Origin: Blastomonas sp. AAP53
GTDB taxonomy: Bacteria; Pseudomonadota; Alphaproteobacteria; Sphingomonadales; Sphingomonadaceae
Direction: 5' to 3'
NCBI RefSeq assembly: GCF_000331245.1
Contig: NZ_ANFZ01000002.1
Location: 258,001-322,000 of the forward strand
Length of the DNA: 64,000 bases
Made by a program: the position numbers and the translations under genes. The notes beneath the pieces are model-generated. The model made no database searches, was not told where the DNA came from, and worked only from the letters and a program-made list of their open reading frames with translations. Of the stretch, positions 41,171-54,480 are shown piece after piece. Numbering within the stretch: the stretch's first letter is position 1; every line of letters starts with the position of its first letter.

Positions 41171-41245
41171 GCGGGCGTAGCTCAGGGGTAGAGCACAACC
41201 TTGCCAAGGTTGGGGTCGAGGGTTCGAATCCCTTCGCCCGCTCCA
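41171..41245 (+). tRNA. tRNA-Gly (anticodon GCC)
   Basis: 75 nt including CCA. Acceptor GCGGGCG pairs with CGCCCGC; the D arm GCTC...GAGC, anticodon stem ACCTT with loop around GCC, and GGTTCGAATCC T arm all fold. The 3' half is the attachment site of the downstream island, which restores the full tRNA sequence. Confidence 0.97.
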
Positions 41246-41252
41246 GTTTTCC
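41201..41252. repeat. Left attachment site (attL), 52-bp direct repeat
   Basis: TTGCCAAGGTTGGGGTCGAG plus 32 further bases, from the anticodon stem of tRNA-Gly to just past CCA. Identical to 54407-54458, and followed by a small hairpin GTTTTCC...GGAAAAC that partly overlaps its end. Confidence 0.97.
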
Positions 41253-41306
41253 TAGGGAAAACAGCGGTTTAGGAAATAGCCGTTTTCAAAAATCCTAAAA
41301 TCAACC

Positions 41307-41348: not shown

Positions 41349-42644
41349 TTGGGAAAAACGGGTCTCAATGATTCCGCTGAGGCTGCAAAGCCCGCAAAAA
41401 CAGCCAGCAATGCCCCCAAAGGAGCGGTCACGGATTCCAAGTCATTCCGTGATGGGCTGATTTACCTCTATCAACGGGCGGATTTCAAAAAGCCAACTTG
41501 GCTCTGCCGGGTGAAGATTCCTAATGGGTCGGGCTATGTGAACCGCAGCACCGGTACGGGCGATGAGCATAAGGCGTTCAAGTTCGCTGATGACCTCTAC
41601 AACCAGCTGCTCGTCAAATCGCTGACTGGCGAGGCTCCGCCAGGCAAGCAGATGGGCAGAGCGATCCAGTCCTACATCGAGCGTTTGGAATCACAGCCGC
41701 ATAAGCTCTCAATCCACTACAAGGTTTTGCTGCTGAAACGGATCAAGCCATTCCTCGAACGGAAGAGCTTTGACGATCTCTCAACCTCATTGCTGTCGAA
41801 GGTGGTCGATGAGCAGATTGCCCTGACTAAGAAGGGTACGCTGTCCCCCAATACGATCAAGCGTACATACACCGACCTCAAGCACTTCCTGCAATGGTGC
41901 ATCGAGGAAGGTTATATCACCCAGATGCCCCGCTTCCCCAAGGTCAACGGTGTTGCATCCAGCCGTCCGCACTTTGATGCTAAGGACTGGGCAAAGTTGA
42001 TCCGCCAGCTCCGGGAGATCGTGAAGGTCGAGAACGGTGCTATCAGGCGGGACCGCATGATGCTGCGGGACTACGTCCTCATCCTTGCCAACACAGGGAT
42101 ACGTGTCGGCGAAGCCCGGACATTAAAGTGGCGGGATGTAACCGAAATCGGTGGCGGCAACGGTGAGGCTGCGCATGTCACGCTGCTGGTATCAGGAAAA
42201 ACTGGTAAGCGGGAGGTTGTTGCCCGTTCAGCCGACATCAAAACCTATTTCAAACGGATACACGATCTGAGGGTCGAGGAGCTGACCGTCGAGGGCAAGC
42301 CCAAGCCAAAGATCGATCCGAACAGCTTAGTCTTCTGCCACAAGGATGGTACGGAGATCGGTACGTTCAAAAAATCATTCGCTGCCTTGATGAAGAGAGC
42401 CGGTGTCGAACGGGACAGCTACGGCAACCTTAGGTCGCTTTACTCCCTCAGACATACCTATGCGACGTTTTGCCTTCAGCATGGTGTGGCGGTGTATACA
42501 CTTGCCAAAAACATGGGAACGTCGGTTGCGATGATTGAGCAGTATTACGGACATACCACTAACGTTGCTTCGGCATCGGAGTTGACCAAGCGGGTTAAAA
42601 GGCAAGCCAGCGGGGCTGCATCGTCGCTTAGTTGGTTGGAATAG
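41349..42644 (+). CDS. int: Tyrosine recombinase / integrase of the island
   Basis: 431 residues with an arm/core-binding N-terminal part and a catalytic domain: Arg252 in NTGIRVGEA, the SLRHTY box (Arg368, His369), and IEQYYGHT carrying the nucleophilic Tyr (Tyr400) and final His. The usual LGHxS motif is MGTSV. Start is a TTG at 41349; an ATG further in would remove part of the arm-binding region. It lies next to tRNA-Gly as expected of an integrase that recognises the tRNA 3' end. Confidence 0.95.
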   Translation: MGKTGLNDSAEAAKPAKTASNAPKGAVTDSKSFRDGLIYLYQRADFKKPTWLCRVKIPNGSGYVNRSTGTGDEHKAFKFADDLYNQLLVKSLTGEAPPGKQMGRAIQSYIERLESQPHKLSIHYKVLLLKRIKPFLERKSFDDLSTSLLSKVVDEQIALTKKGTLSPNTIKRTYTDLKHFLQWCIEEGYITQMPRFPKVNGVASSRPHFDAKDWAKLIRQLREIVKVENGAIRRDRMMLRDYVLILANTGIRVGEARTLKWRDVTEIGGGNGEAAHVTLLVSGKTGKREVVARSADIKTYFKRIHDLRVEELTVEGKPKPKIDPNSLVFCHKDGTEIGTFKKSFAALMKRAGVERDSYGNLRSLYSLRHTYATFCLQHGVAVYTLAKNMGTSVAMIEQYYGHTTNVASASELTKRVKRQASGAASSLSWLE

Positions 42645-44599: not shown

Positions 44600-45478
44600 T
44601 TACCTCTGGGCGAGGCGAAGTAATGGCTCGTTATAGGTCGATATAAGCGATTGCATTGAATCCAGACCGTCAAAAAAAGCTCTCGAGTCAACGCCATCTT
44701 TGCTGCTTAACTTAGTAATTGACCGAACATATTTAAGAGTACCAGGTGGAACCTCCGCCCCCCATCTCGGAAAGCCTATTTGCCCAATTCTTACACGAAC
44801 GGTATTGGTTTTTTTGAATATAAACCCTTTCGTCTCCTGTCTTTCTGACATAACATCGATATAATTTTTATCGGCATTATCGAGGTAGAAGCCATACCTT
44901 GATAATATCTTGTCAAGATGGCGAAATGTGATTGATTTTTTATCATTAGTCATTTGCCTCATGCTTTTCTTGATCCAGTGAGCAATGAAGCGAACCTCGG
45001 GGTCGGTGTCTCCGTCCTTTTTAAGTTCCCTATATCTTGAATACTTTTCAAGACCATTTTCAGCAACTTCTACCGTAAAGTCTTCAATTACCTTTTCAGA
45101 TACACAAGGACATCTATTAATTGAATGCATTTGATATATCATTGACAAAAAAGCAGTCCTCTTATTAGCATCATAAAAACAATGATTTTTTATGATCCCA
45201 TAAAATAATGTTGCCGCAATTTCATATTGAGTAATCCACTTTGCTTTTCCGGCAAAGCTACTTATCTGTCGGCAAACTGTTGACTCTAATTCGTTGATGT
45301 CCTTTGGACCCACTCCGCCAATGCCTTCACCTTCCAGATAAAAATGGTTTGCAATCATAAAGTGCGCACGTAGCACGTCAGTCACTGACAAGGCTGGAGA
45401 AGGGAAGCTTGTTACTTCAGTGTACGCAGCCAGGATACGATTGTATTCCTGCAGAATTTCAGGTTCTAATTCAAGCAT
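44600..45478 (-). CDS. Fic/Doc-family protein with a long C-terminal extension
   Basis: 292 residues. Residues about 30-135 hold a Fic/Doc domain: the active-site loop is HCFYDANKR (His99, Asn105-Lys-Arg107), near HPFxDGNxR, so it may transfer a nucleotide or phosphate to a target protein. The C-terminal 150 residues do not match a known Fic partner and include a Lys-rich helix (KKDGDTDPEVRF) and beta-like strands. No antitoxin such as Phd lies next to it. AT-rich in its 3' part. Confidence 0.75.
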   Translation of the reverse strand: MLELEPEILQEYNRILAAYTEVTSFPSPALSVTDVLRAHFMIANHFYLEGEGIGGVGPKDINELESTVCRQISSFAGKAKWITQYEIAATLFYGIIKNHCFYDANKRTAFLSMIYQMHSINRCPCVSEKVIEDFTVEVAENGLEKYSRYRELKKDGDTDPEVRFIAHWIKKSMRQMTNDKKSITFRHLDKILSRYGFYLDNADKNYIDVMSERQETKGFIFKKTNTVRVRIGQIGFPRWGAEVPPGTLKYVRSITKLSSKDGVDSRAFFDGLDSMQSLISTYNEPLLRLAQR

Positions 45479-45523
45479 ATGAGTGTTTGCCAAGATTCCA
45501 GCCAGCCCGCAATCCCCCAGCGA

Positions 45524-46171
45524 TCACCCGACCTTACCTCGGTAAAGATATCTGAGGATATTTTTGACCTGTTGTGGATGAAACCCCTTTCCATTTGCGG
45601 TACTGAAGCCAGCCATATTGAGGCGACGGGCAATCTCACTGATCGACAGCCCCGCTTCCTTCATCGGCGTGATGACGGGTCTGAATGCTTCGGCTCGTTC
45701 GTTGGCGGTTCGGCGGTTCTGTTCCGCCAGCACCTTGCCATTCTTCCCCAACTGAACACCCCGCTTTTTCGCCTCTGCCAGCGCATTGCGGGTTCGCTCT
45801 GAGATCAGGCGGCGCTCCTCCTGGGCGAGCGCTGCAAAGATATGCAACTGGAAATCCGTTGCGTGAGGCATCTCTGCCACCACCAACCCGATCCCTTGTT
45901 CCATTATAGAAGCGATGAAACTTACCTTGCGGGAAAATCGGTCCAGCTTGGCGATCAGCAGCTTGGCGTCAGATCGCTTTGCGTGATGGATTGCCTTCCA
46001 AAGCTGGATACGCTCGTCGTTCTTACCGGACTGCACTTCGACATATTCCGCTATCACCTCATCGCCATCGGAAACGAACCGTTCGATCAAAGTATGCTGA
46101 GCTGCCAAGCCTAGACCGGACTTTCCCTGCTTCTCCGTCGAAACCCTGAAATATGCCACATACCGAGTCAT
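45524..46171 (-). CDS. Serine recombinase / resolvase
   Basis: 215 residues: a serine recombinase catalytic domain with the nucleophile Ser11 in AYFRVSTEKQG, Arg residues in IAKLDRFSR and LISERTRNAL, then a helix-turn-helix (AGLSISEIARRLNMAGFSTANGKGFHPQQVKNI). About the size of Tn3-type resolvases and invertases. It may resolve or invert island DNA; the island's own insertion is the job of the tyrosine integrase. No recombination sites were recognised nearby. Confidence 0.88.
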   Translation of the reverse strand: MTRYVAYFRVSTEKQGKSGLGLAAQHTLIERFVSDGDEVIAEYVEVQSGKNDERIQLWKAIHHAKRSDAKLLIAKLDRFSRKVSFIASIMEQGIGLVVAEMPHATDFQLHIFAALAQEERRLISERTRNALAEAKKRGVQLGKNGKVLAEQNRRTANERAEAFRPVITPMKEAGLSISEIARRLNMAGFSTANGKGFHPQQVKNILRYLYRGKVG

Positions 46172-46251
46172 TTTCCGCATTCCCGTAAAATACAAACGTT
46201 GGTTTATGTTTGACGGGGTCCGTTAGATCGGTGGATCGGACAACTGATTGA

Positions 46252-46933: not shown

Positions 46934-47428
46934 TCAATGGGGGTTGTGGCAATTCAACCAGTCTATGGATGATCCGAAGTCGGGTTTGTCCCGGAACTTC
47001 GTAATGTAGGAGACCCACCCCTTGTCACAGGGAGTGATGTGGGTCTGGTCGTATCCCCAAAGGGTCTGTCTCCAGGTCTGGATGACCATTGACGGGAACA
47101 CCTCAATTAGGTCCTCACGGGGACAATCCATGACCAGATGGTAATGGAGACGCTTGGTCCCACCACCCTCTAGAACGGAGATTACAGGGAGTTGTTTCCC
47201 GAACCGACGGGAGGAAGAACCATAAACCTGTTTGTTTAGGACATTGAGGAAGTGACGGAGGTTCCTGGAACCGTCCTCCGGGGTCAGTGTCACACCGTGA
47301 CGTCCTCGGTTGTTATCGATCCAAACCCGTTGTTTCAGGGTCAGGGTGACGCCGAACGGGTAATTCCAGTGGTCGATGTCGATCCACTGACGAACGGATC
47401 GTTGAAGAGATGAGGAAGGGATGGTCAC
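46934..47428 (-). CDS. HUH-type Rep-like endonuclease (rolling-circle replication initiator candidate)
   Basis: 164 residues. The three motifs of rolling-circle Rep proteins are in order: FGVTLTL (25-31, motif 1), HYHLVMD with His95 and His97 (HUH metal site), preceded by Glu87 and a Gly-rich turn, and YITK with Tyr141 and Lys144 (motif 3, single-Tyr nicking residue). Small size fits Rep proteins of plasmids, phages and satellites. Start is GTG 47428. It probably nicks the element at an origin; no origin was located for certain. Family assignment is by motif only. Confidence 0.7.
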   Translation of the reverse strand: MTIPSSSLQRSVRQWIDIDHWNYPFGVTLTLKQRVWIDNNRGRHGVTLTPEDGSRNLRHFLNVLNKQVYGSSSRRFGKQLPVISVLEGGGTKRLHYHLVMDCPREDLIEVFPSMVIQTWRQTLWGYDQTHITPCDKGWVSYITKFRDKPDFGSSIDWLNCHNPH

Positions 47429-49738: not shown

Positions 49739-50144
49739 GAATAAAAAGCTGGGCATCCCATGTCGGTGCCCAGCCGTTCCCGTTCGGCGATTGCTTTATC
49801 CATCATTGCTTGGCGGCGAATCTGGGTAACAGCCTCTGCCGAACCTTTCATTCCCTCGCTCCCTTTCGCCTTCGCTTGGAGACGCCTGCAGTCATCCGAT
49901 TAGTAGCATTCGAAAGGTAATAGCGGTTCCGCCTGGGTGCGCCGATCGATCTTCCAAACCTAAATATCCAGCCCAAATTCCCGGTATCGGACTACACCTA
50001 GCACGCAAAGTCGATCGCTCCGGGGTTCCCGATGCCCTTGAAAAACAAATCAAGAACAGTGGACACTCCTGCGGCGTATATGTATCGGGATCGGGTAGGC
50101 AAGGACCCACCCGGGCGGTGGATCAGCGCAAGGGTGAGCAGTGC
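49739..50144. other. Gap between the HEAT-like gene and the first methyltransferase
   Basis: 406 bp. On the reverse strand bases 49750-49851 have a good ribosome site and a short frame starting MKGSAEAVTQIRRQAMM that runs antisense into the HEAT-like gene, perhaps a truncated remnant. On the forward strand a 42-codon frame (from 50031) overlaps the methyltransferase start. Neither is convincing. The methyltransferase promoter should lie here; no clear repressor site was seen. Confidence 0.4.
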
Positions 50145-51299
50145 ATGTACAATGTGGTAGACCTGTTTTGTGGCACTGGAGCGTTATCTTACGGGCTGAG
50201 CTTGGAGGATTCCCGGTTCCATGTCGTTGCAGGCCTCGATCACGACGCTGACGCATGTCAGACAGCAAGGGCAAACCACCCAGGCGCTAAGATTCTTTGC
50301 CGGTCCATAAGAGACCTGTCGGCAGCTGATTTCGCCTTGGAAGCCGGATTGTCCGATGTTGATGTGATCGTGGGCGGCCCACCTTGCCAAGGGTTCTCTT
50401 CACTGCGGCCGAAACGGAATAGCAACAAAAACGACCACCGTAATTACCTGTATCTCGATTTTGTTGAGTATGTTGGATTTTTCCGCCCAAAAGTCTTTCT
50501 AATGGAGAATGTAGTTGGATTGATTGGAGAAACAAAAGGTGAGCTTCTTAGTGAAATAATGAGTGATTTCATCAGCCTTGAATACGACGTAGATTTCCGA
50601 GTTCTCAATGCAGCCAACTATGGTGTTCCCCAAAAGCGGGAGCGTCTGATTATGGTGGGTGTCAACAAAAATCTGGTTTCCAAGCCAGTATTACAATTTC
50701 CAAACCCAACACATTTTTTTAATGGGCGTGTGATTGGGACTAAACGCAAAGACAAATATGTGACCAATCCAGCACGAGGGCTCCCTGCGCTTTCTGTAAT
50801 GGAGGCAATTTCAGATCTTCCAGAATTGGCGGCCGGTCAGTCCAGCGATTGCTACGCAACCCAACCGGACAATCCGTTTCAAAAAATGATGCGAAAAGGT
50901 AGTACCGATAGGCTATCGTTGCATCAGGCCGCAGCACATTCCTCGAAAATGCTGGATGTCATTAAGGTAGCGGGCACAAGTAAGAATGCTTTGCCGGAAG
51001 GGCTCGTTTCAAGCGGCTTTAGCTCTTGCTACTCCCGCATGGAGCCTGACCAGCCGGCGACCACCATAACCGTAAAGTTCACATCACCAGCTTCCAGCAA
51101 GTGCATCCACCCATATCAGCATCGAGCTATCACCCCCCGGGAAGCTGCTCGTCTACAAAGCTTTCCTGATTGCTTCCAGTTCCGTGGGTCAAAGACAGCC
51201 ATCGCATCGCAGCTTGGCAATGCGGTTCCACCTCTCTTGAGCAAGGCTATTGCTCCAATGCTGATTCAGAATCTTGAGGGAAGCATCCGTGCGGAATGA
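50145..51299 (+). CDS. DNA (cytosine-5)-methyltransferase, first of two
   Basis: 384 residues with ordered C5 motifs: motif I DLFCGTGAL, motif IV GGPPCQGFSS with nucleophile Cys81, motif VI ENV (Glu121), motif VIII QKRERLI, motif IX ITPREAARLQSFPD, and motif X GNAVPPLL. The target-recognition region is about 200-300. It methylates cytosine in the host target. ATG 50145 has gggtgag upstream. The second methyltransferase follows 52 bp later and faces the nucleases. Confidence 0.95.
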   Translation: MYNVVDLFCGTGALSYGLSLEDSRFHVVAGLDHDADACQTARANHPGAKILCRSIRDLSAADFALEAGLSDVDVIVGGPPCQGFSSLRPKRNSNKNDHRNYLYLDFVEYVGFFRPKVFLMENVVGLIGETKGELLSEIMSDFISLEYDVDFRVLNAANYGVPQKRERLIMVGVNKNLVSKPVLQFPNPTHFFNGRVIGTKRKDKYVTNPARGLPALSVMEAISDLPELAAGQSSDCYATQPDNPFQKMMRKGSTDRLSLHQAAAHSSKMLDVIKVAGTSKNALPEGLVSSGFSSCYSRMEPDQPATTITVKFTSPASSKCIHPYQHRAITPREAARLQSFPDCFQFRGSKTAIASQLGNAVPPLLSKAIAPMLIQNLEGSIRAE

Positions 51300-51351
51300 T
51301 CTCTCCCAAGGATTTTTGCCGTTTGCGGTGTCGAAGCCTTCCCAAGGGGCG

Positions 51352-52626
51352 ATGAGTGACGATGCAAAGCCAAAGGCGGTTTGTCTCTTTTCGTCAGCTG
51401 GGGTTGGTGAATTGGGCGTCCATGCAGCTGGCATCGACCTGATCTGCTCGAATGAGATGGTCCCGTACCGGGCTCAACTGTACCGAGAGAATTTTCCTGA
51501 TAGCCAGATGCTATGCGGCGACATTTGGCAGCTCAAATCCGAAATCACTTCTCGAGCTGCAGAGAGTCTTAAGAACGACGAGCTATTTTTGCTTTACGCA
51601 ACCCCGCCTTGCCAAGGGATGTCTACGAACGGGATTGGCAAGCTCAAATTGGAAGCTGCCGAAGGCAGGCGGGACGTTGAGGACCCTCGGAATCGCCTCA
51701 TCATACCCACGATGGATATTGCATGTGATCTGCGCCCACGGTGGCTTCTTCTGGAAAATGTTCCTGGGATGCGCAACACCGCAATCACGGACGAAAATGG
51801 AAGCTTCGTGAACATCATAGATTATGTGCGGAACCGGCTGGGACCGGAATATGCGGGGGCGGCAGAGGTTGTTCAGTGTGAGCGCTATGGTGTTCCTCAA
51901 ACACGCAAGCGCCTTATAACAATCTTCACTCGAGATGCTGGAGGAAAGAACTGGTTCACATCGAATGGCGGCTCTTTTTTCAGCCAATCGATGCAGGCCC
52001 CCGTAAAAACATTAAGGGACGCAATAGGACATCTACCGGAACTAAATGGCCGACAGGGTGAAAATGCAAGAACTGACTTTCACCCTTACCATTATGTAAA
52101 TCCACTTGATGACCGAAAGTACTGGTGGATTGAGAATACTCCCGAAGGGGACACTGCATTCAGCAACCAGTGCGTCAACCCCGAATGCGGTTTTCAATCA
52201 AATCCTCGTCACAAAGATAGTGTTGTCAATGGAAAGTCTACGGCGGGATTGGAAACACCAATATACTGCATTGAATGTGGGAGCCTTTTGCCTCGACCAA
52301 CCGTGATTAACAAAGATGGATCACACAGACTTCTAAAGGGATTTCACTCCGCATATCGCCGAATGAAATGGGACGAGCCCGGTCGTGCGCTGACGCAGAA
52401 TTTTATTTACGAAGCCTCCGATAACAAAGTTCATCCCGACCAAAATAGAGTTTTATCGGTTTTAGAGGCGCTGATTCTTCAAACTATCGATCATTACGAC
52501 TACAAGTTCTCGATCCAAGGTAAAGGAATCGGTACGGCTCGGATTGCTGAAGTTATCGGAGAATCGGTCCCGCCACTGCTCATTGAAAAGATATGCAAGA
52601 AGATGATTGAAGTAAGTGAGGTCTAG
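51352..52626 (+). CDS. DNA (cytosine-5)-methyltransferase, second, with zinc-ribbon insertion
   Basis: 424 residues: motif IV ATPPCQGMSTNG with Cys87, motif VI ENV (Glu135), motif VIII QTRKRLI, and motif X ESVPPLLIEK, so it is active by motif. A segment at about 270-312 (Cys274, Cys279, Cys306, Cys309) looks like a zinc ribbon in the target-recognition part, not usual for bacterial C5 enzymes. It is clearly different from its partner, as expected if the two modify two strands of an asymmetric site. Its stop overlaps the convergent nuclease stop (CTAG). Confidence 0.93.
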   Translation: MSDDAKPKAVCLFSSAGVGELGVHAAGIDLICSNEMVPYRAQLYRENFPDSQMLCGDIWQLKSEITSRAAESLKNDELFLLYATPPCQGMSTNGIGKLKLEAAEGRRDVEDPRNRLIIPTMDIACDLRPRWLLLENVPGMRNTAITDENGSFVNIIDYVRNRLGPEYAGAAEVVQCERYGVPQTRKRLITIFTRDAGGKNWFTSNGGSFFSQSMQAPVKTLRDAIGHLPELNGRQGENARTDFHPYHYVNPLDDRKYWWIENTPEGDTAFSNQCVNPECGFQSNPRHKDSVVNGKSTAGLETPIYCIECGSLLPRPTVINKDGSHRLLKGFHSAYRRMKWDEPGRALTQNFIYEASDNKVHPDQNRVLSVLEALILQTIDHYDYKFSIQGKGIGTARIAEVIGESVPPLLIEKICKKMIEVSEV

Positions 52627-53345
52627 GAAATTTTTACACCTAGACGAATAAGACAATCTTTGTGCGAATCTTGATAGATCAAGCAACCAGACTTTATCTT
52701 TGCTTTGCCGAGAGAGTTTGTTGCGGTGTTGCTGGTCTTCTTTTTGTCCGATTTTCCTACGCTAACCTTGTTCCAATCGCTTTGATCGAGGCGAGCAAAA
52801 AATATTGCCTTTATTTGCGGAGAGCCATGCGTTTGCGGACAAAAATCATAGTAGCATCCCAATAAATCACAAGCGTGTGCGTGATGGGCCCAATACGTGA
52901 GGTTGGTGATCGCCGCTTGCCTCGGCTGTCCAATACCATAGGAGCTGGCGGTTCGAATGTCGCCGATTGTGCATTTGATTTCGACCCCTCCGTGACGGAA
53001 TGGCGCTAAATGCTCTCTGATTGGCCGCAGCGAGGCCGTATCATAACAAGTGCTCTCAAAATAATGCCTCACTGAAGGATCTGAGAGATTCAACAGGTCA
53101 GGGCGACCGTCAGGATGAGGGTTGGGAAAGAAATTCTGATCTGTTGCGTGTATAGCGTGTTTAAGTACCTCGCCTACAAAACCTGAGATATTGCGCTGGT
53201 TGAGAGAGCTATAAAATTGATTAGTGTTAGACCCCAAAATTTCAGGAATTTTTGCAAGATAATGATTCGCTTTCTCAGCGGATCTCGCCAAGTCGCTTAG
53301 GCTGATGGGGCAAAAATTGCCGTTTGAGTTATGCGTAAACATCAT
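52623..53345 (-). CDS. Candidate restriction endonuclease subunit, PD-(D/E)xK, downstream copy
   Basis: 240 residues. The nuclease motif reads PDGRPDLL ... 39 residues ... GGVEIK (Asp83, Glu122, Lys124), a PD-(D/E)xK core. The region before it, ISGFVGEVL, aligns with ISGLIGEI-like sequence of the upstream gene. The two proteins are related (same core layout, similar spacing), though low in identity. No known restriction family was recognised. It starts in the stop codon of its partner (ATGA), so they are co-translated. Confidence 0.75.
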   Translation of the reverse strand: MMFTHNSNGNFCPISLSDLARSAEKANHYLAKIPEILGSNTNQFYSSLNQRNISGFVGEVLKHAIHATDQNFFPNPHPDGRPDLLNLSDPSVRHYFESTCYDTASLRPIREHLAPFRHGGVEIKCTIGDIRTASSYGIGQPRQAAITNLTYWAHHAHACDLLGCYYDFCPQTHGSPQIKAIFFARLDQSDWNKVSVGKSDKKKTSNTATNSLGKAKIKSGCLIYQDSHKDCLIRLGVKIS

Positions 53346-54037
53346 TCGATTGTTACATATTCATCTGGCAAAATATGAGGTCCACTAAATAAAATTCCTC
53401 GTTTTAGCTTTTCAAAAGCGCCCGGTGTCGTCTGGCAAAAGGAAGTCATGGTGCTACCCTCTTTGGGATTTTGTTTCTCGGTCCAATCACATTCTTCAAG
53501 ATCGTCGGCAAAAAATCCTGCCACAATCTGAGGTACACGGTCCACGTAATTCGATTGGAGTGCTATGAGATTGTTAGTTTGTCGATGATGAGCCTTCCAA
53601 ACCAAAATGTTCTGGATATGCGAAAAGCGACATTCTCTTTCAGACCATTTTGACTTTGATTTTTTAACGCCAAAAGTGTTCTTAACTTCTAACCCGCCGC
53701 CGGGGAATTTTAAAAAATCTTGCTTAGTGAAAGAGTTGAGATTGCCATCGAGGCCTAAGCCGGTCAGATCCAGTATGTCAGGGTACCCATCAATGTCCGG
53801 ATTTCGAGCTAAGTCGACATGCAACGATGAAACCTCATTGGCATAAATCTCTCCAATCAAGCCGCTGAGCATGCGCAAATCAATGATGTCATATAGATCG
53901 AGGTCGACCCCATCTATCGGCTTACCTGCATTTCTGAGATGAGCATTCACGTTATCAGCGGCTTGTATCAGGAGGTCGACCGGCACTTTATCGGCATTCA
54001 GTTTGATATCTTTTTTGCGATGTTGCTTCAGGATCAT
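53342..54037 (-). CDS. Candidate restriction endonuclease subunit, PD-(D/E)xK, upstream copy
   Basis: 231 residues from the ATG at 54037. The nuclease core is GYPDILDL ... 29 residues ... GGLEVK (Asp87, Glu117, Lys119). The ATG at 54037 makes its N-terminus match its paralogue in length up to the shared SGxxGE segment, so it is preferred over 54109. With two different methyltransferases and one paralogue, a heterodimeric endonuclease is likely. It is the first gene of the pair; a promoter should lie in the gap before attR. Confidence 0.75.
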   Translation of the reverse strand: MILKQHRKKDIKLNADKVPVDLLIQAADNVNAHLRNAGKPIDGVDLDLYDIIDLRMLSGLIGEIYANEVSSLHVDLARNPDIDGYPDILDLTGLGLDGNLNSFTKQDFLKFPGGGLEVKNTFGVKKSKSKWSERECRFSHIQNILVWKAHHRQTNNLIALQSNYVDRVPQIVAGFFADDLEECDWTEKQNPKEGSTMTSFCQTTPGAFEKLKRGILFSGPHILPDEYVTIE

Positions 54038-54406
54038 GGAGTACATGTAGCACCACATGCTGCCTGCGCAAGATCCGCCGCTTAGCTTACCGAATTCCGC
54101 TGACCACACGGTCCTAGTGAGTGATGTGCCCGGCTTAGTTTCTGCTAGCTAATCAGAGGTCGTTGAGCTTGGATTTAGTCATCAGATATATGCTGAGAAC
54201 GCCGTCAGCGATGCAGAGGTGCAGCTAGGGAAAGGCTCAAACCCGGGGCAAATCTCAGAAATAACTCTCGGTACCCGGGGTAACTTCTCAATGGAACCGG
54301 CACATTGAAGTTTCAAAGTGCAGCAAGGTATCTTCGGATCATCTTCGGATTTTGTATCGACGATATAATCTATTGAAAAAACACGCGTATTGCATAGATT
54401 TGACTT
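54038..54406. other. Right-end gap of the island
   Basis: 369 bp with no gene. It should hold the promoter of the endonuclease pair on the reverse strand and contains the right 22-bp repeat (54330-54351). A cargo-side palindrome was not seen. Confidence 0.5.
54330..54351. repeat. Right copy of the 22-bp subterminal repeat
   Basis: ATCTTCGGATCATCTTCGGATT; one base different from 41307-41328, same orientation, ending 55 bp before attR. In the excised circle the two copies would flank the 52-bp core at equal distances. Confidence 0.7.
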
Positions 54407-54458
54407 TTGCCAAGGTTGGGGTCGAGGGTTCGAATCCCTTCGCCCGCTCCAGTTTTCC
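54407..54458. repeat. Right attachment site (attR), 52-bp direct repeat
   Basis: Identical to 41201-41252; it is the 3' part of tRNA-Gly without a 5' half, so it is not a functional tRNA. It is followed by the small hairpin GTTTTC...GAAAAC that overlaps its end, similar in form to the hairpin at attL. Confidence 0.97.
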
Positions 54459-54480
54459 ATCGAAAACCATATCACCAAGA

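Follow-up and report, generated by a model that had tools for sequence, protein, structure and literature searches.

Does the gene cluster at positions 50145-54037 of this 64,000-nucleotide stretch of Blastomonas sp. AAP53 encode one restriction-modification (R-M) system with a heterodimeric nuclease, or two systems that lie side by side? The whole stretch is called the window here, and all positions refer to it. The cluster consists of two methyltransferase genes, M1 and M2, and two nuclease genes, R1 (alpha) and R2 (beta). The outer limits of these four genes define the module and agree with those of an earlier, sequence-only reading of the window. That reading had favoured one heterodimeric system over two palindromic ones. 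The pairing of the nucleases, the distribution of M1, the correlated distances and the class-conserved residues described below point the same way. We consider it very probable that the module is a Type IIT-like R-M system in which R1 and R2 form a heterodimer on an asymmetric site, because unlike, paired subunits with complete active sites, together with two methyltransferases, make up the Type IIT arrangement.

M1 and M2 are on the plus strand and R1 and R2 on the minus strand, tail to tail (Table 1). The M1 open reading frame (ORF) runs from 50118 to 51299, and the ATG at 50145 is its likely start. Two unlike C5-methyltransferase genes with Cys81 and Cys87 in PCQG motifs had been proposed, and the ORFs and their matches to PF00145 bear this out. 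M1 and M2 are 27% identical and are not close paralogues. In an alignment of the target-recognition region, M2 holds a four-cysteine insert, which may be read as a Zn ribbon; this cysteine-rich insert is absent from M1. The end of R2 overlaps the start of R1 by 4 bp, and the stop codons of M2 and R1 also overlap. R2 starts with the ATG at 54037 (231 amino acids), and an alternative reading from the GTG at 54109 gives 255 amino acids. All four ORFs are full length and intact, and the catalytic residues are retained. A scan of promoters and terminators gave no excess over chance (5 vs 4.9; 1 vs 4.8).

R1 carries PD at residues 82-83, GGVEIK at 119-124 and SGFVGE at 54. The corresponding motifs of R2 are PD at 86-87, GGLEVK at 114-119 and SGLIGE at 58. 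BLASTP aligned the two proteins with 56 identities in 217 positions (26%, E 6e-20). Because of this E value, and because both proteins match one nuclease profile, R1 and R2 are homologues, and a chance resemblance of motifs is excluded. The description of two overlapping, related nuclease genes convergent with the methyltransferases was therefore correct. A Pfam search gave no family for R1 or R2 at E up to 1. The PADLOC REase_II profile PDLC03564 does match the two proteins, and the earlier statement that no restriction family could be recognised has to be withdrawn: the nucleases belong to a restriction family that is described and unnamed.

AlphaFold2 models of both nucleases were confident (predicted local distance difference test scores, pLDDT, in Table 1), and the fold ranking relies on the VIA-align Z score. 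NaeI was the top match for both, with Z 9.9 for R1 (147 aligned, 3.5 Å) and Z 9.1 for R2 (147 aligned, 3.7 Å). EcoRV reached Z 6.4 with R1 and 7.1 with R2. The next neighbours, with Z between 5 and 8 for R1, R2 or both, were NhoI, 3ndh (which we take to be ThaI), EcoRV, SfiI, BglI, NlaIV, MvaI and DpnI. In the same range SwaI appeared in the R2 list only and HincII in the R1 list only; MutH had Z of about 5 in the fold search and PvuII scored lower. Many of these neighbours are blunt cutters, SfiI and BglI excepted. As modelled, both subunits have the PD-(D/E)xK fold and fall on the EcoRV/NaeI branch. The sequence-only reading depended on this fold, and a model without it, which would have spoken against that reading, was not obtained.

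By sequence, no PDB chain matched R1, R2 or the profile with an E value below 1. With phmmer, R1 found none at E up to 5 in a set of PDB chains in which the presence of BbvCI was not checked; R2 found three lambda-exonuclease-type chains (E 1.8), and the profile of A2 found none. In all 82 family rows, the residues aligned with D83, E122 and K124 of R1 are identical, as are those aligned with R142, H154 and H155.

The first relatives were found by tblastn. These were a Peribacillus simplex plasmid with the same four genes and a small E. coli plasmid and an S. suis phage, each with one nuclease and one methyltransferase gene. A pattern-and-tblastn scan of genome contigs (one genome per species) gave 62 loci and viral contigs gave 6. 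With L003-L006 and the window, these make up 73 loci, among which the near-identical sets include L003/L065, L006/L012 and the Microcystis loci. A single pattern, [GQ]G[VIL]E[IV]K[CNA]TxG, was used, so loci whose nucleases all deviate from it would be missed. At cut-offs of at least 100 bits for nucleases and at least 200 bits for methyltransferases, 60 of the 73 loci combined a single nuclease with a single methyltransferase, the latter of the M2 kind. Six loci had two of each: the window, L004 (Peribacillus), L007 (Psychrobacillus), L008 (Clostridia), L009 (Verrucomicrobia) and L067 (Solirubrobacterales). Two nucleases with one methyltransferase were seen in three loci (L010 from Bacteroidetes, L044 and L071), and a nuclease with no methyltransferase in view in four (L059, L068, L072 and L074). 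Below the cut-offs were a 30-bit nuclease fragment in L006/L012 and a further C5 gene in each of the single-nuclease loci L038 and L047, 26-30% identical to M1-type proteins.

Some of these loci hold nucleases of the E. coli-plasmid type. In L044 (5986-7474) and L071 (5263-6771), such a nuclease (motifs NPIEKGHPD and QAHHQEV) adjoins one of the common single type, with one family methyltransferase in view. This pair differs in kind from alpha and beta and is possibly another heterodimer or a double nuclease. The nuclease of L068 (3496-4458, Limnofasciculus baicalensis) is also of the E. coli-plasmid type, and no family methyltransferase lies within the fetched 10.4 kb.

A tree of the 82 nucleases contained an alpha clade and a beta clade of seven rows each (support 100/99 and 100/100). 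Both come from the same seven loci, and in all seven alpha and beta are adjacent with overlapping frames, beta first. Within what was scanned, none of the 82 nucleases compared was an alpha or beta on its own. On a quick tree, the M1-type genes form a clade of five rows, all from alpha-beta loci (5 of 7), and the M2 genes from alpha-beta loci group in a single clade, which also takes in both L008 methyltransferases and lies within the methyltransferase family seen with single nucleases. An M1-type gene beside a single nuclease of the PDLC03564 family was not seen in the 73 loci. M1 precedes M2 in all five loci with both. The methyltransferase pair is convergent with the nuclease pair in the window and L067, divergent in L004 and L007 and tandem in L009.

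The distance correlation was 0.92 for alpha-beta (6 of 5040 permutations as high), 0.93 for alpha-M2 (3 of 5040) and 0.81 for beta-M2 (49 of 5040). For alpha-M1, beta-M1 and M1-M2 it was 0.99, 0.95 and 0.98 (2 of 120 permutations each). Hosts of alpha-beta loci belong to Bacillota, Verrucomicrobiota, Actinomycetota, Bacteroidota and the window's own phylum, and several are known from metagenome-assembled genomes (MAGs) or single-cell assemblies. The window groups with Verrucomicrobiota and Actinomycetota, against host taxonomy. Since the distances correlate and this grouping departs from host taxonomy, the four genes appear to travel together as a unit.

These results bear on the alternative that the module holds two neighbouring Type IIP (palindromic) systems that work independently, in which R1 and R2 would each act as a homodimer alongside a methyltransferase of its own. 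In favour of this, most loci of the family pair a single nuclease with a single methyltransferase, M1 and M2 are not close paralogues, and a relative of M1 on the Psychrobacter plasmid pA15BP4 (46% identity) adjoins a gene of its own that resembles a nuclease fused to a helix-turn-helix (HTH) part. However, unrelated systems would be expected to separate across five phyla, and independent histories were not seen. Alpha and beta were not found alone among the 82 nucleases compared, the M1 type was not seen with single family nucleases in the 73 loci (the extra C5 genes of L038 and L047 being just distantly similar to it), and the distances of all four proteins correlate. The nuclease genes overlap and the methyltransferase genes are consecutive. 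We regard two palindromic systems as improbable.

Ten alignment columns separate alpha from beta (at least 6 of 7 rows each), and at nine of them the 64 single nucleases show almost no variation. At three of these nine, where the singles have G, Y and P, one class retains the single-type residue whereas the other does not. At the remaining six, the singles have A (64 of 64), C (58), K (64), W (64), T (62) and V (60), alpha has C, I, W, Y, K and N, and beta has N, F, K, S, M and F. Beta thus keeps one of the six single-type residues and alpha none, and each set is conserved within its class. In the window's proteins these positions are C125, I127, W152, Y166, K203 and N206 of R1 and N120, F122, K148, S162, M197 and F200 of R2. 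The uniformity of the single enzymes across phyla suggests that they share one palindrome. Alpha and beta conserve different residues and so probably read two different half-sites; the class-specific residues may touch DNA.

The same columns were considered against two further explanations. In the first, the enzyme is a heterodimer with one site-reading subunit and one helper cutter, like BsrDI and BtsI. Type IIT enzymes of that form exist according to a 2014 review (PMC4081073), but R1 and R2 are similar in size and can be aligned almost from end to end, and class-conserved residues occur in both, spread from the N-terminal half to the C-terminal part. This arrangement is highly unlikely for the module. 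In the second, the module would be the remains of an R-M system on a genomic island, decayed or no longer active, as the long branches of R1 and R2 and a frameshifted relative without M1 (L010, below) might indicate. The four ORFs and their catalytic residues are nevertheless intact, and at the ten class-specific columns R2 keeps the beta majority at all ten and R1 the alpha majority at eight, so that we see very little chance of decay.

Type IIT enzymes are described in the same review as having two catalytic sites, asymmetric recognition sites and generally two methyltransferases. Judged by sequence, the module encodes two different nuclease subunits, each with its own P-D...E-x-K site, as well as two methyltransferases. 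The recognition sequence of such a Type IIT-like system would be asymmetric, with each strand cut by a different subunit. R1 and R2, made from overlapping genes, would form the heterodimer, and each subunit would recognise a different half of a short non-palindromic site and cut one strand through its own PD...ExK site. The ends would probably be blunt or nearly blunt, as with many relatives on the NaeI/EcoRV branch. M1 and M2 would each provide 5-methylation of one strand of the shared site.

Site avoidance was measured as observed over expected hexamer counts in eight single-nuclease hosts (80-160 kb each) and four alpha-beta hosts (20-224 kb). In two of the eight single-nuclease hosts, at least 4 copies of TACGTA were expected; 1 was observed against 8.7 expected in G403 (rank 2 of 59) and 12 against 16.1 in G390 (rank 11 of 64). 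For CACGTG, a rank was available in six of the eight. It was low in G397 (3 against 16.4 expected, rank 1 of 48), G400 (rank 2 of 45), G403 (rank 3 of 59) and G404 (rank 5 of 51), more weakly so in G394 (rank 13 of 45) and not low in G390 (rank 53 of 64). The scarcity of TACGTA and CACGTG hints at YACGTR, which we do not claim because many palindromes are low in these genomes. Among the alpha-beta hosts the counts gave no hint of the site: in G000 and G389 depletion was seen for none of six asymmetric NACGTN hexamers, and G385 and G387 had too few counts. In the window's own genome (G000, 224 kb sampled), CCGCGG was strongly depleted, with 60 observed against 172 expected, and GCCGGC, GGCGCC and CGGCCG were also low. 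These low counts may reflect general palindrome avoidance or traces of other R-M systems.

Several observations weigh against the heterodimeric Type IIT-like reading or parts of it. The NaeI Z scores of 9 to 10 just moderately exceed the best Z of 7 to 8 that is usual without a clear match, and Foldseek (R1 only) was weak, with a best E of 0.1 (EcoRV). The branches of R1 and R2 of the window are long, and at two of the ten columns R1 does not have the residue of the alpha majority. Two of the seven alpha-beta loci, L008 and L010, are without M1. In L008 (3869-8247, a Clostridia MAG), two M2-like methyltransferases flank the nucleases, and an M1 search of this genome matched only these two genes. 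This suggests that a second methyltransferase is needed, yet either clade can supply it. L010, a 1.2 Mb single-cell assembly, has one M2-like gene, no M1 and an alpha gene split by a frameshift; it may be decayed, incomplete or mis-assembled. Finally, the 82-row tree puts alpha beside four nucleases of the E. coli-plasmid type (89/57) and away from beta, with a long-branch warning.

When those four and other long, short and duplicate rows were omitted, a 70-row tree placed alpha and beta together, apart from 56 singles (95/74), also with a long-branch warning. One nuclease duplication giving alpha and beta is possible and is the route we favour, although it is weakly supported because the grouping appears only without the E. 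coli-plasmid-type rows. The ancestor would have been a system of one nuclease and one methyltransferase, presumably palindromic and homodimeric. Duplication of its nuclease and gain of a methyltransferase from another clade would then have given the four-gene mobile unit.

M1 is 50.8% identical to its Peribacillus plasmid partner, and its closest other plasmid relative is the gene on pA15BP4, which is similar in the recognition region. The pA15BP4 gene is divergent to that of an HTH-fused protein annotated as a transcriptional regulator (L083, 1412-3545). The middle part of this protein (TYPDLL...DLEIK) aligns with the nuclease family (hhalign 95.8%, E 8e-9, 81 columns), and the pair is probably an R-M system with a regulator-nuclease fusion. 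Searches with the HTH-nuclease (30 of 56 and 10 of 22 matches listed) gave an S. suis phage fragment and a weak partial match on an Acidiphilium plasmid (31% over 48%); the rest, among the matches listed, were to the HTH part. No HTH-nuclease was found in the viral contigs or in 398 genomes of the phylum. In Streptococcus phage phi-SsuHCJ31_comEC (L006, 4347-4943), a frameshifted gene of the pA15BP4-like nuclease kind lies directly upstream of the single nuclease gene, with no HTH part in the stretch read.

A 13.2 kb element, bounded by a tRNA-Gly gene and a repeat of the tRNA 3' end, carries the module as its final portion; other genes of the element are included in Table 1. The G+C content of the element is 47.3%, compared with 63.5% and 65.9% in the parts of the window on either side of it. 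Seven loci from congeneric genomes share homology with this tRNA-Gly region as far as the end of the tRNA gene (41245-41252), where it stops. PDLC03564 was present in 2 of 385 genomes drawn from the class, namely the window's own and that of L003, which is identical to L065 from a Rickettsiales MAG. It was present in 1 of 397 genomes drawn from the family, again the window's own. Because of these counts, the module is rare in its class and family and was gained horizontally.

Table 1. Features of the module and of the element that carries it (positions in the window; aa, amino acids).
Feature	Position	Strand	Evidence or remark
M1, C5-cytosine methyltransferase, 384 aa	50145-51299	+	PF00145 1.2e-63
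M1 catalytic Cys81 codon	50385-50387	+	PPCQG motif
M2, C5-cytosine methyltransferase, 424 aa	51352-52626 (start ATG)	+	PF00145 5e-38
M2 catalytic Cys87 codon	51610-51612	+	PPCQG motif
R1, alpha nuclease subunit, 240 aa	52623-53345	-	PDLC03564 2.9e-32; model pLDDT 94.3
R1 active-site codons	D83 53097-53099, E122 52980-52982, K124 52974-52976	-	
R2, beta nuclease subunit, 231 aa	53342-54037	-	PDLC03564 5.8e-24; model pLDDT 91.7
R2 active-site codons	D87 53777-53779, E117 53687-53689, K119 53681-53683	-	
tRNA-Gly (gcc), integration target	41171-41245	+	ARAGORN; Rfam tRNA
Left attachment-site-like repeat (tRNA-Gly 3' end and beyond)	41201-41263	+	63-nt direct repeat
Right attachment-site-like repeat	54407-54469	+	92% identical to 41201-41263
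Tyrosine integrase, beside tRNA	41349-42644	+	PF00589 3.3e-12
Fic/DOC-domain gene	44600-45493		within element
Serine resolvase gene	45524-46195		within element
Replication protein, ORF2/G2P type	46934-47428		within element; PF23343 1.2e-9

Compared with the single systems of the PDLC03564 family, R1, R2 and M2 are homologous to their nucleases and methyltransferases and have the same active-site residues. The single systems have one nuclease and one methyltransferase, whereas the window has two diverged nucleases and M1 in addition, and the singles are nearly uniform at positions where the window-type nucleases carry other residues. The S. suis phage member is annotated R.SnaBI (MN270268), and the SnaBI-likeness of the family rests on this one annotation. 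Among the matches listed in a literature search, no paper dealt with the family to which SnaBI belongs. On balance, we lean towards an independent invention of a heterodimeric Type IIT enzyme in this EcoRV/NaeI-fold, SnaBI-like family, in which a palindrome cutter was duplicated and a foreign methyltransferase recruited, so that the recognition site lost its symmetry; the four-gene unit would since have spread through at least five phyla with its two half-site specificities frozen. The family contains many single systems and few paired ones, and a handful of positions separate single, alpha and beta nucleases. How a palindrome gives way to an asymmetric site without killing the host is directly testable in it by position swaps.

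The module had been likened to BbvCI and Bpu10I. The likeness in organisation holds, since BbvCI (CCTCAGC) and Bpu10I (CCTNAGC) also have two different nuclease subunits with their own catalytic sites and two methyltransferases (PMC4081073, PMC6326814). Close descent is not supported as far as visible. The nearest folds of BbvCI are SgrAI and NgoMIV, and its cut leaves a 3-base 5' overhang (PMC6326814), whereas the models of R1 and R2 are NaeI/EcoRV-like; the absence of SgrAI and BbvCI from our pre-filtered fold list proves nothing. Because the fold neighbours differ, the module looks like a lineage separate from BbvCI and Bpu10I, and the likeness is organisational. Bsu36I and BlpI are homodimers. 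Both are named as relatives of BbvCI and Bpu10I that arose by divergent evolution, and the review presents Bsu36I, Bpu10I and BbvCI as such a case (PMC4081073, PMC6326814).

Heterodimeric enzymes are sources of strand-specific nicking enzymes, and the present module may provide them from a blunt cutter. The site of BmgBI, CACGTC, and that of SnaBI, TACGTA, have an ACGT core in common, and BmgBI may belong to the R1/R2 nuclease family. According to PMC4081073, BmgBI is a Type IIT enzyme with similar-sized subunits that both take part in recognition, an organisation like that of the module. LlaJI (GACGC/GCGTC) has two C5 methyltransferases that protect an asymmetric site, but its two restriction genes are homologous to McrBC (PMC1459862), whereas R1 and R2 are related PD-(D/E)xK subunits of one REase_II family. 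The kind of system is already known, but its nucleases belong to a little-described family.

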